36,474 bases of DNA from Clostridia bacterium (GTDB lineage Bacteria > Bacillota > Clostridia > Lachnospirales > Lachnospiraceae): contig JAQXQS010000112.1 of the NCBI GenBank assembly GCA_029101305.1, forward strand, positions 1 to 36,474. The letters are read 5' to 3'. A program made the position numbers and the translations under genes. Below, one piece after another: positions 3,841-32,200 of the stretch. The notes beneath the pieces were generated by a model that was not told where the DNA came from, did not search any database, and saw only the letters and a list, made by a program, of their open reading frames with translations. Numbering within the stretch: the first letter of the stretch is position 1; each line of letters opens with the position of its first letter.

Positions 3841-3891
3841 AAAAGTTACTATTTAATGTGCTGGGGAATCGACACCCAGCACATTAAATAG
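3839..3891 (-). terminator. Terminator hairpin shared by convergent genes (short repeat form)
   Basis: A perfect 17-bp stem (3849-3865 with 3875-3891) encloses a 9-base loop. Read on the minus strand it is followed after four bases by six T residues (A-run 3839-3844), so it should end transcription of the LacI gene. On the plus strand it lacks a T-tract. The same arms reappear at 18307-18328 and 18554-18575 around a much longer insert, so the stem also belongs to a dispersed repeat family. Confidence 0.65.
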
Positions 3892-3904
3892 CAAATACCG
3901 TTCT

Positions 3905-14081: not shown

Positions 14082-14183
14082 CACTTAATGAGCACAAGCC
14101 GGCAGGCGCCGGGCGAATTTAGTGCGAATGCACACCTGGACACTTAATGAGCGCAAACCGGCAGGCGCAGAGCGAATTTAGTG
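14082..14183 (+). repeat. Duplicated 43-bp palindromic unit
   Basis: Two units of 43 bp (14082-14124 and 14141-14183) match at 39 positions. Both start CACTTAATGAGC, contain CCGGCAGGCGC and end GCGAATTTAGTG, so their ends are near-inverted copies. The second copy is enclosed by ACACCTGG (14132-14139) and CCAGGTGT (14185-14192). TACTATGAGC occurs before the first unit (14073-14082) and after the second (14192-14201). The block sits between the ATPase terminator and the PucR-type gene and does not look coding. Confidence 0.8.
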
Positions 14184-16727: not shown

Positions 16728-18296
<1,569 letters not shown>

Positions 18297-18306
18297 CACC
18301 ATAATT

Positions 18307-18575
18307 AATTGCTATTTAATGTGCTGGGGAAATGCGGTTCTAACCAGTTGTCGATAACCAGCGGTTTGGCAATGTATATTCACGTAGCCGTGCATTTCAG
18401 GAGCGGTTTTAGTGGAGGCGAGATCCATGACTTACGGAGACTTGGCGCGAAGGCTCTCCTGAGCGTCTTAGTCGTAGTTAGTCATTAGCTTGCCGGAACG
18501 TTGCTCCGCACGGCGGTGAATATACATTGCCAGACTGCGTCCGGGAAACGACGCCCAGCACATTAAATAGCAATT
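18307..18575. repeat. 269-bp nested foldback element, long form
   Basis: The outer arms 18307-18328 and 18554-18575 are perfect 22-bp inverted repeats (core CTATTTAATGTGCTGGG). An inner pair (18367-18383 with 18516-18532) adds 17 perfect base pairs containing GGCAATGTATATTCAC, extended by GCCGTGC/GCACGGC. The centre has smaller hairpins such as ATGACTTA/TTAGTCAT. The outer arms and right flank match the 43-bp hairpin at 3849-3891; the difference is 216 bp bounded by GGGAAA on both sides. It fills most of the 432-base gap between glpK and uppP. No coding frame of note exists in it. The remaining 18576-18659 stretch is T-rich with nothing recognised. Confidence 0.85.
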
Positions 18576-18659: not shown

Positions 18660-19562
18660 TTATGCCAGTAAAGTCTTACCTACAAAATAAACCAGTACCA
18701 GTGCACCAAGTACGATTCGGTACCATCCAAACGCCTTGAAATCATGCTTCTTGATATATCCCATCAGGAACTTGATTGCAAGGATGGAAACTACAAATGC
18801 AACCACCATACCGATTACCAGGATCAGTACCTCTGTACCAGTAAAACCAAAGCCAAATTTCAGAATCTTCAGAAGGCTGGCTCCGAACATAACCGGAATG
18901 CCAAGGAAGAAGGTGAATTCAGCCGCAACTGTACGGGAAGTGCCCACCAGGATTCCTCCGATGATGGTAGAACCAGATCTGGATGTTCCAGGAATGACAG
19001 AGAGTACCTGGAAACAGCCGATCAGGAAAGCTGTCTTAAAGGACAGATCTTCCAGACTTGTGCACTGCGGCTCTCTGCCTTTGTTATAGTTTTCCACAAT
19101 AATAAACAGAACACCGTAGACAATCAGCGCAATAGCAACAACTACATAATTGTTAAAATGTGCTTCAATGAAATCATTAAATGGAAGTGCAATAATAATG
19201 GTGGGCAGACATGCTACCACAATTTTGAACCACAGCACCCACTTATCCTTATCACAATAGCGCTCCACAAAATTCAAGATCACCTGTGCCCATTTCGGTT
19301 TCTTCGCAATTGCCATCTGGGTTCGTTTCGGAAGCTTCTTTATGTAAAAAGGCCACAGCTTATTCCAGTACAAAACAACAACTGCAAGTATGGCTCCAAG
19401 CTGGATCACAACCAGAAATACGTCCATAAAATCCTGTGACACATTCAGATGAATAAACTCATCGACCAGGATCATATGTCCCGTACTGCTGATGGGGAGC
19501 CATTCTGTAATTCCCTCAACAATACCAAGGAGAATTACCTTTAAAAGTTCGATAATATCCAT
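18660..19562 (-). CDS. uppP: Undecaprenyl-diphosphatase
   Basis: This 300-residue polytopic membrane phosphatase (BacA/UppP) recycles undecaprenyl diphosphate to the monophosphate carrier used for peptidoglycan and surface polysaccharides. Conserved motifs are [18 protein letters not shown] (13-30) and [10 protein letters not shown] with the catalytic-site serine and arginine. About eight hydrophobic helices are present. I chose ATG 19562 because AAAGGGG lies 7 bases upstream; an in-frame GTG at 19580 overlaps that site. A stable hairpin (19592-19621) stands just upstream. The same lipid carrier is used by the sugar transferase at 32215-33618. Alone in its transcription unit. Confidence 0.95.
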
Positions 19563-19591
19563 TTCTACCCCTTTCTTCACTTTAACAAAAT

Positions 19592-30787: not shown

Positions 30788-32200
30788 TTATTCATATCCG
30801 CTTCCATCGTCAAAACCGGAATCTGATGAACCATCATCCCCGCTTCCGTCATAGCCGCCATTGTCATAATCAGCACCGCTATCATAATCGCTTCCACTGT
30901 CGGAATTGCTTCCATCGTTGTAGTCATTACCACTGTCATAATCGCTTCCGCCATTATAATCATTTCCGCTGTCGTAGTCACTTCCACCACTGTAATCATT
31001 GCCACTATAATCACTACCAGAATTGCTTCCACTATAGTCATTATAATCGTAATTTCCGCTTCCATCACCCTGCCATACGATCTCATCTGAGGAACCAGCT
31101 TCATTACTTGCCAGCGGAGCCTGATCTACCAGTGTATCAGCACCACCTACCAGTTCAATGATCTTGGCATTTGCGTCTACAATGTTCTGGGACGGCTGGT
31201 AATTCTCATCTGCGCCGTAGAGGAACTTGTGAAGCTCTTTTACATTCTCTTCAAGGGTATCGGCAACTACCATACTTGCTTTTTTAACATCTGCAAATTT
31301 ATACTTGGATGGGAAACCGGTAGTATCGCTGATATTATACCCCATCAGATTCGGAATCAGGTTGAGAAGCTCTGTCTTGCTGACAGATGTGGAAATCATC
31401 GGGAATACCTCGTCCATAATATTAAAGATCGTAGTCAGCCCGGCTGATTTCGCCTTGTCTACCATCAGGCCGATAACCCGGCGCTGACGCTCTGTACGTC
31501 CCATATCCATACTTGCAGTGTAACGGATACGGCAGTAGGATACGACCTGTACTCCGTTCAGATGATACTCTCCAAGTGTCTCTTCTTCATTTGCAGGTTT
31601 CGGATCTGGAAGTGTTACAGGTGTATAGCTCTTACCGGTTTCTTCTGAAGTCTCTATACAATAATCATTCATAAATACCATTTCTGCATAAGAAAGAGGC
31701 AGGTCAAGTCCACCAAGAGCATCCACTGCTGACACCATCGCATTAAAGTTAACTGTTACATAATCTGTAATATTCAGATCCAGCATCGTATTCAGCATAG
31801 AAATTGCCTGCTCCGGGCCGCCATAAGCATAAGCTGCATTTGCTTTGGTATAGGTGTCATTTCCAATATCAAGCAAAGTATCTCTGTAAATAGAAGCCAG
31901 CTTCACTTCTTTGGTATCATTATTAATACTTGCAATAATAATGGTATCACTGTTCTGGGCATCAAGCGCAGCATTCTTAGAACGCTGGTCTATCGCAAAC
32001 AGTGCATAAGTGGTGTATCCAGACATCTGCGGAGCAGTTACATTTGTAACGATCTTACTTTCATCCAACTGTGGTGTCTCAATCTTGTTCAGTCTGGAAT
32101 CTATCTGTCCATATACATACAGACCGCCGATAAATACCAGCAGACAGATAATTTCCAGAATAAACAAAGCAGTCCTCTTTTTTCTACCAGGTCTTGCCAT
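30788..32200 (-). CDS. LytR-CpsA-Psr (LCP) family cell-wall polymer ligase
   Basis: This 470-residue LCP protein transfers lipid-linked polysaccharide to peptidoglycan outside the membrane. A basic N-terminus and one membrane helix (about 13-33, LFILEIICLLVFIGGLYVYG) precede the LCP domain. Motifs include NSDTIIIASINNDTKEVKLAS with SIYRDTLLDI, DYVTVNFNAMVSAVDALGG and the arginine-rich RIRYTASMDMGRTERQRRV. The final 93 residues are a Gly/Ser/Asp/Tyr low-complexity tail. The start is ATG 32200, preceded by GAAAGGAAAG. It follows the sugar transferase stop by 14 bases, suggesting one operon and a common role in surface polysaccharide attachment. Confidence 0.94.
   Translation of the reverse strand: MARPGRKKRTALFILEIICLLVFIGGLYVYGQIDSRLNKIETPQLDESKIVTNVTAPQMSGYTTYALFAIDQRSKNAALDAQNSDTIIIASINNDTKEVKLASIYRDTLLDIGNDTYTKANAAYAYGGPEQAISMLNTMLDLNITDYVTVNFNAMVSAVDALGGLDLPLSYAEMVFMNDYCIETSEETGKSYTPVTLPDPKPANEEETLGEYHLNGVQVVSYCRIRYTASMDMGRTERQRRVIGLMVDKAKSAGLTTIFNIMDEVFPMISTSVSKTELLNLIPNLMGYNISDTTGFPSKYKFADVKKASMVVADTLEENVKELHKFLYGADENYQPSQNIVDANAKIIELVGGADTLVDQAPLASNEAGSSDEIVWQGDGSGNYDYNDYSGSNSGSDYSGNDYSGGSDYDSGNDYNGGSDYDSGNDYNDGSNSDSGSDYDSGADYDNGGYDGSGDDGSSDSGFDDGSGYE
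30791..31069 (-). repeat. Repeats encoding the LCP C-terminal tail
   Basis: The tail (residues 378-470) is made of YDSG/DYSG-like repeats, including two tandem copies of the 12-residue unit GGSDYDSGNDYN, i.e. 36 bp. The DNA repeats could change copy number by slippage while keeping frame. No membrane anchor or cysteine is in it. Confidence 0.75.

Follow-up and report, generated by a model that had tools for sequence, protein, structure and literature searches.

The foldback at positions 18307-18575 of the window, the whole stretch of 36,474 nucleotides from a Clostridia bacterium of the Lachnospiraceae that was analysed, belongs to a real and mobile family of repeats. The family is distributed throughout the Lachnospiraceae and is, as far as these searches go, undescribed. 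Its members share a conserved unit, an irregular hairpin of ~117 nt (117 model positions), referred to below as the core. We consider it probable that the family represents a dispersed, non-autonomous mobile repeat of the Lachnospiraceae, similar in its working to the REP/BIME repeats and several times larger.

The window copy contains one core and both outer arms (Table 1). The outer arms form a perfect inverted repeat of 22 bp, while complementarity between the inner arms is 91% across 23 nt. When folded as RNA, the + strand of the 269-bp foldback reached -135.6 kcal/mol versus -80.5 kcal/mol for shuffled sequences (sd 4.5, n = 200). This corresponds to a z score of -12.2 (-10.1 for the minus strand), and none of the 200 shuffles was equally good. 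No ORF of at least 80 aa in the window overlaps the foldback. The flanking ORFs, both on the minus strand, stop before it (16728-18227) and start after it (18660-19580). One side is occupied by a gene with FGGY carbohydrate-kinase domains, which we take to be glpK, and the other by a gene with a BacA domain, presumably uppP. Elsewhere in the window, two direct repeats of 43 bp (14082-14183; 91% alike, spaced 59 bp) sit before and at the start of the ORF at 14147, and degenerate repeats of 20-54 bp lie within an ORF at 30840-31031.

Table 1. Parts of the foldback and the related short hairpin, in window coordinates
Feature	Position	Strand	Remarks
Left outer arm, TTGCTATTTAATGTGCTGGG	18307-18328	+	Terminal inverted repeat of the source-genome subfamily; pairs perfectly with 18554-18575
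Left spacer, TTCTAACCAGTTGTCGATAA type	18329-18357	+	Same type in L002, L003, L004, L006 and L025
5' foot (CCAGC) and left arm of inner stem	18358-18383	+	Inner arms 18361-18383 / 18516-18538
Conserved structured core	18393-18508	+	Covariance model R1, 133.9 bits
Right arm of inner stem	18516-18538	+	23-nt inner inverted repeat
3' foot tag GCGTCCG	18537-18543	+	First 2 bases paired in stem
Right spacer, GGAAACGACG	18544-18553	+	Read from sequence
Right outer arm, terminal inverted repeat	18554-18575	+	Perfect partner of 18307-18328
Short hairpin, core-less deletion derivative of the same repeat family	3846-3894	+	Compare L054 and L025

Compensatory change is widespread in the core. Two-sided changes were found in 18 of 29 pairs in a MAFFT alignment of 25 sequences (A1), and in 26 of the 29 in an alignment of 88 distinct sequences (A2) that were fitted to a covariance model, a procedure which favours the structure. 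In A2, 96.8% of the cells are paired, as against 80.4% in shuffles and 25-43% with slid partners. G·U cells outnumber A·C cells in both alignments (159 vs 30 in A2; 61 vs 6 in A1). Because of this excess, the + strand appears to be the folded molecule, be it RNA or single-stranded DNA; the excess leaves the two undivided, since single-stranded DNA also tolerates G·T. A symmetric 3x3 loop, C-GNA-G / C-GNA-G, recurs by eye in the middle of the core, and the asymmetric internal loops of the core persist across genera. In one genome, G006, another hairpin of ~85 nt (TTTGAAAATCC...) interrupts or replaces, by eye, the 3' part of the core (L073, L075, L077, L079), entering it at differing points, and thus hairpins are nested within hairpins there.

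The copy number and spread of the family were estimated with covariance model R1, which was built from 25 cores and gives lower bounds, as only part of the candidates were scored. In the source genome of the window, 27 core matches were found; a BLAST search with the whole 269 bp yielded 42 matches there, fragments included. The best copies of this genome share 94-97% identity with the window copy and are set in different flanks. In the genus, 19 of 64 genomes carry the core, with 1 to at least 57 copies each. Carriers made up 35 of 397 genomes (33 of 334 genera) in a family-wide draw, 3 of 295 in an order-wide draw and 2 of 348 in a phylum-wide draw. The two in the last draw belong to the same family, and no core match lay outside the Lachnospiraceae in those 348 genomes. 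A core-pattern scan of named genomes matched at least 116 stretches, those listed including Blautia schinkii DSM 10518, Blautia parvula NBRC 113351, Dorea, Acetatifactor and Lachnospiraceae MAGs. Distant blastn searches gave no match among 72,556 plasmid and 50,697 phage records, nor did the exact core pattern match viral contigs. At gathering scores, the covariance models of Rfam 15 detected only a tRNA in the window and nothing at the foldback; the sole sub-threshold hit (E 1.2) adjoins the foldback rather than covering it. No account of this element was found in the open-licence literature at the level of titles and abstract beginnings. At 12 of 30 BLAST loci, the match starts no more than 14 bases from the beginning of a contig or stops no more than 2 bases from the end of one; the repeat thus marks breaks in the draft assembly. 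For annotators of common gut bacterial genomes it is a sequence to be masked, and Rfam would gain a new entry if it is an RNA.

The window copy had been regarded in the initial annotation as an occupied version of the hairpin at 3849-3891, in which a small palindromic element was inserted into the loop of another palindrome. The coordinates and matches given for the two loci were accurate in the details checked: positions 3864-3894 and 18543-18573 agree at 29 of 31 positions, i.e. with two differences, the long form has exactly 216 bp more, and GGGAAA is found at 18327-18332 and 18543-18548. The description as a small, non-coding, modular palindromic repeat stands as well, but the short form cannot be taken as the unoccupied site. 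Three short forms (3846-3894; L054, at C189:4020-4081; L025, on C71) have three differing junctions. The left part of L054 is exact in L002 and its right part exact in L013, the overlap being a 9-nt direct repeat, GAAACCGCG. By eye, the junction of 3846-3894 is consistent with GGGAA, and that of L025 is GGCAAT; the left and right occurrences of these two repeats were in part read from different long copies rather than from a single one. When short direct repeats flank a hairpin, deletion between them is a classical outcome of slipped mispairing. Since the junctions differ, the short forms appear to be separate internal deletions, and the 3.8-kb hairpin is a deletion derivative rather than an empty site. 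That a 216-bp palindrome entered the loop of an older one, with the 3.8-kb copy as the empty site, is accordingly very improbable. The GGGAAA at both borders would suit such an event, but the left GGGAAA is missing from the other long copies listed, and these borders do not coincide with the limits of the segment shared with other copies and species. In addition, the outer arms are confined to the source genome among 64 congeners and the core is family-wide, a distribution that argues against a core lodged secondarily in a pre-existing outer palindrome.

The outer arms of the window copy are a local feature. An 18-mer of the arm, allowing up to 2 mismatches, has 14+16 matches in the source genome and 0-2 matches, the background level, in each of the 63 other genomes of the genus. 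Cores lacking these arms are found in L026 of the source genome and in other congeners, whose matches to the arm do not exceed background; conversely, the three short forms have the arms but no core. Outer arms (median length 33.5 nt over 90 elements) match within a copy and differ between copies, as was evident when the pairing energy of a copy's own arms was compared with that of swapped arms. Of the 47 B. schinkii hits, 44 were usable; for these, the energy was -136 kcal/mol for own arms vs -76 for swapped ones, and the own arm was the best partner in all 44. The corresponding values were -83 vs -60 kcal/mol in G014 (19 of 26), -73 vs -52 in the source genome (4 of 12) and -91 vs -74 in G002 (7 of 12), the preference being weak in the latter two. 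By eye, kinship among the G014 arms can still be recognised, and their drift is compensated; copies within G450 or within G569 have nearly unrelated sequences in mid-stem and keep both stem ends. The element in L407 (G379:C44) has an outer arm of 132 bp that is 97% complementary, and the stretch folds at -262 kcal/mol.

The feet of the stem carry short tags, none of which is universal. Of 111 elements, 53 have the motif CGT[ACT]C near their 3' foot, compared with 26 of 328 control windows, and 20 of 43 genomes or groups have at least one instance. It was not found at the foot in the other 58 elements; the count of 53 is low, because the foot finder over-extends past a second outer inverted repeat (e.g. 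in L001 and L400). In B. schinkii (L340-L369), CGTAG precedes the 5' foot in 19 of 21 copies vs 4 of 21 controls, at an upstream distance of 20-115 nt from the core. GTAG was absent from the 5' foot in all 24 G014 copies and all 6 source-genome copies tested. At the position of the 5' foot and left arm, G014 and certain source-genome copies have, by eye, CCAGTNCACAGC.

Two further candidate traits of the element borders were rejected. In L402 (G569:C14), the left arm lies over the 3' end of an ORF, which suggested that each insertion might build its outer stem by copying the host flank in inverted form. This possibility was looked into over 90 elements. It fails for L402 itself, because other G569 copies share the arm, so that the element would have supplied the gene end. 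The number of 10-mers shared with a copy's own vs other flanks was 2.73 vs 3.17 in B. schinkii (41 records, some from the same pair), 0.50 vs 0.33 in G569 (n = 6) and 1.90 vs 0.27 in G014 (n = 10), the last being driven by two copies. The element in L402 apparently contributes the terminal codons, stop included, to a frame of 378 aa that lies upstream, and L190 and L191 also overlap ORF ends. The other candidate was a tandem array at the border. By eye, tandem repeats of roughly 18-68 bp adjoin elements of G014 (L241, L242, L247, L252, L253, L261), and in several of them the repeated unit starts with the 3' tag of the element (GCGTMCG), followed by flanking DNA. An array lay within 200 bp of 9 of 12 elements in a 392-kb sample of G014 vs 12% of random points in element-free gaps; in B. 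schinkii, the figure was 4 of 23 vs a control of 12%, and five loci tried in the source genome yielded one array, far from the element. As they are strong in G014 and not so in B. schinkii, such arrays appear to be lineage-specific rather than a general trait.

Neighbouring elements have a strongly preferred arrangement. Among 189 listed elements, entered by hand with G014, G338, G006 and some other genomes left out, 32 pairs of neighbours are no more than 2 kb apart; 29 of these are inverted (-+), with 5' ends inward and 3' feet outward, two are (--), one is (++) and none is (+-). Both (--) pairs are in the source genome, where L022 resembles an inversion of one core between inverted arms. 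Fuller copies of that genome (C145, L015) hold two cores in inverted orientation; the order in C145 is arm, tail, core (-), spacer, core (+), and the copy is truncated where the contig ends. In the light of these fuller copies, the 18.3-kb copy is itself probably reduced. All 12 cores in the 392-kb sample of G014 are single. The B. schinkii pairs have different outer repeats of about 25 bp (by eye). The interiors of 16 such pairs are dissimilar and mainly non-coding; frames of more than 90 aa occur in 3 of the 16 (L349, L360, L364), L360 having in addition an HTH-like frame of 72 aa (named by eye), and no protein common to the 16 interiors was seen. At L126 5614-6039, also in B. schinkii, a NUDIX-like frame of 142 aa (named by eye) is located between inverted elements in the manner of cargo.

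In at least 39 congeners, counted among the genomes in which both genes were matched, the matching ends of glpK and uppP are 13-148 bp apart, as compared with 387-483 bp in the window; the window copy is thus extra DNA between the two genes relative to these congeners. When ten congeners were aligned, the gene ends aligned and the spacers did not, so that an empty site at the level of single bases is not available. No target-site duplication was visible by eye in the flanks of the listed source-genome copies. The orientation of copies relative to genes follows no clear rule (n = 71; 25 ++, 15 --, 11 -+, 7 +-, 10 at edges and 3 in ORFs; background gene gaps, 48, 41, 28 and 16 in the same order). 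At two positions (L097/L101 and L130/L153), elements have the same neighbour genes in different species. Either an old insertion or a hotspot fits these positions, the flanks being too diverged to tell the two apart.

The search for a mover yielded none. Neighbouring ORFs (at least 120 codons, stop to stop) at 144 loci were clustered, and the 25 largest clusters, judged by eye, contained no mobility gene and resembled transporters, regulators and housekeeping genes. Y1_Tnp was not found in the drafts of G014 (97% complete, 33 copies), G338 (90%), G003 and G006 (both 81%), and only as fragments in G000 and G325 (B. schinkii). RVT_1 was likewise not found in the drafts of G353 (94% complete, 9 copies), G350 (90%, 5 copies), G019 (92%, 4 copies), G003 and G006. 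Absence from several carriers is strong, though not final, evidence against either as the general mover, as a gene such as Y1_Tnp may be missed in any single incomplete draft. Nor did an arm pair enclose a transposase gene among 64 arm matches of the draft source genome, judged by position, and seven contexts, although transposons often collapse at contig ends. Given that the terminal repeat is, within the genus, confined to the source genome and that Y1_Tnp and RVT_1 are absent from several carriers, the signal common to carriers would be the folded core.

Several other explanations have to be weighed against a mobile repeat. The covariation of the stems may be purely mutational: when replication switches templates, one arm is copied over the other, and the complementarity that results needs no function. 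Hairpin deletions and core inversion are typical of replication through palindromes, and both deletions and an inverted core (L022) were encountered here. Arms that differ between copies and match within a copy also fit such a process, which is known to generate and mend hairpin stems (PMC8794818); for that reason, the covariation of the outer arms was not taken as proof of function. Yet template switching is expected to erase the asymmetric loops of the core, which persist across genera, and the excess of G-U over A-C is unexplained by it alone. As a full account, we regard it as possible though doubtful; it may well explain the outer stems, in which case it would coexist with the mobile-repeat explanation.

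A dispersed functional RNA, with the core acting in trans or in cis as a structured RNA under selection and being spread by duplication, would account for compensatory change throughout the family, for conserved G-U pairs and their excess over A-C, and for the two positions of conserved gene order. Such an RNA is hard to reconcile with the patchy distribution at the genus and family levels and the wide range of copy numbers, the lack of a clear rule of orientation or position relative to genes, the 39 congeners without room for the element at the window site and the lack of an Rfam match, and we deem it unlikely. Somewhat less likely still is a conventional MITE, in which a DDE transposase supplied in trans cuts the 18-22-bp terminal inverted repeats and the core is a passenger. 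The perfect outer arms of the window copy and the other outer repeats of the B. schinkii pairs are what a MITE would have, but the arm is at background in the rest of the genus while the core is family-wide, cores of G014 lack such arms, and neither a target-site duplication (by eye) nor an arm pair around a transposase gene (by position in the draft source genome) was seen.

If the family is a dispersed mobile repeat, a folded single strand, either lagging-strand DNA or an RNA copy, would be recognised, and an enzyme encoded elsewhere would read the core and the feet. The full unit may be the inverted pair, from which single-core and core-less forms would arise through deletion between short direct repeats; in the source genome, terminal inverted repeats of 18-22 bp would now bound the unit. 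A bolder proposal, which we put forward tentatively and consider rather unlikely, is that the family stands for a new class of structure-addressed mobile DNA, whose transposition signal is a large folded strand with conserved internal loops, whose outer stem is free in sequence, and whose enzyme belongs neither to the Y1 transposases nor to the reverse transcriptases. If this is true, inverted pairs that bracket unrelated DNA, such as the NUDIX-like and HTH-like frames of B. schinkii, could move genes.

Among known systems, integron attC sites are comparable by description, as they are recognised as folded single strands with a stem sequence that is free between conserved feet, and BOX repeats are likewise short, non-coding and folding. 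The same likeness, again of description and not of sequence, extends to ERIC, RUP, Correia and YPAL (reviewed in PMC2229807). The GTAG REPs, BIMEs and REPINs that go with RAYT (TnpA_REP) share inverted pairs, intergenic dispersal and a strand-specific hairpin with the present family, and the CGTAG of B. schinkii copies is a further resemblance. Unlike them, our elements are large, the 24 G014 and 6 source-genome copies have no GTAG, and several carriers have no Y1_Tnp, with mere fragments in B. schinkii (G325).

The CGTC-tagged REPs offer a second comparison. REPs measure 20-40 bp, and the CGTC type has stems of 8-9 bp and loops of 4-5 nt (Di Nocera et al. 2013, PMC3733652). Neisseria dRS3 and Rickettsia RPE-4 and RPE-6 are included, and that paper lists the repeats in five phyla, without Firmicutes among them (PMC3733652). 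They occur mostly as HH dimers with the tags outside, their clusters are reiterated together with flanking DNA and they have no dedicated transposase (PMC3733652). The present family has a similar palindromic body with a CGTC-like motif at one foot (53/111), its neighbour pairs are HH dimers in 29 of 32 cases, and no dedicated transposase was found for it. In contrast, its elements measure at least 200-300 nt, their conserved core is irregular, and the motif is 3' on the G-U-favouring strand, whereas a passage of PMC3733652 implies the opposite side, with a CCA tail at the far end. Because size, stem and polarity differ, we do not file the family under the CGTC REPs. By analogy, the closest published kind nevertheless appears to be the tagged REP superfamily, and the family would work like a member of it. 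Our verdict is that it represents a much larger REP/BIME-like variant; a new principle would be involved only if the mover turned out to be new. For the CGTC-type palindromic repeats, the question of the mover was not settled in 2013 (PMC3733652). The present family offers a far larger and unmistakable structural signature than those repeats, and since it is present or absent among sister species, at 1 to at least 57 copies per genome, its mover can be sought by co-occurrence.
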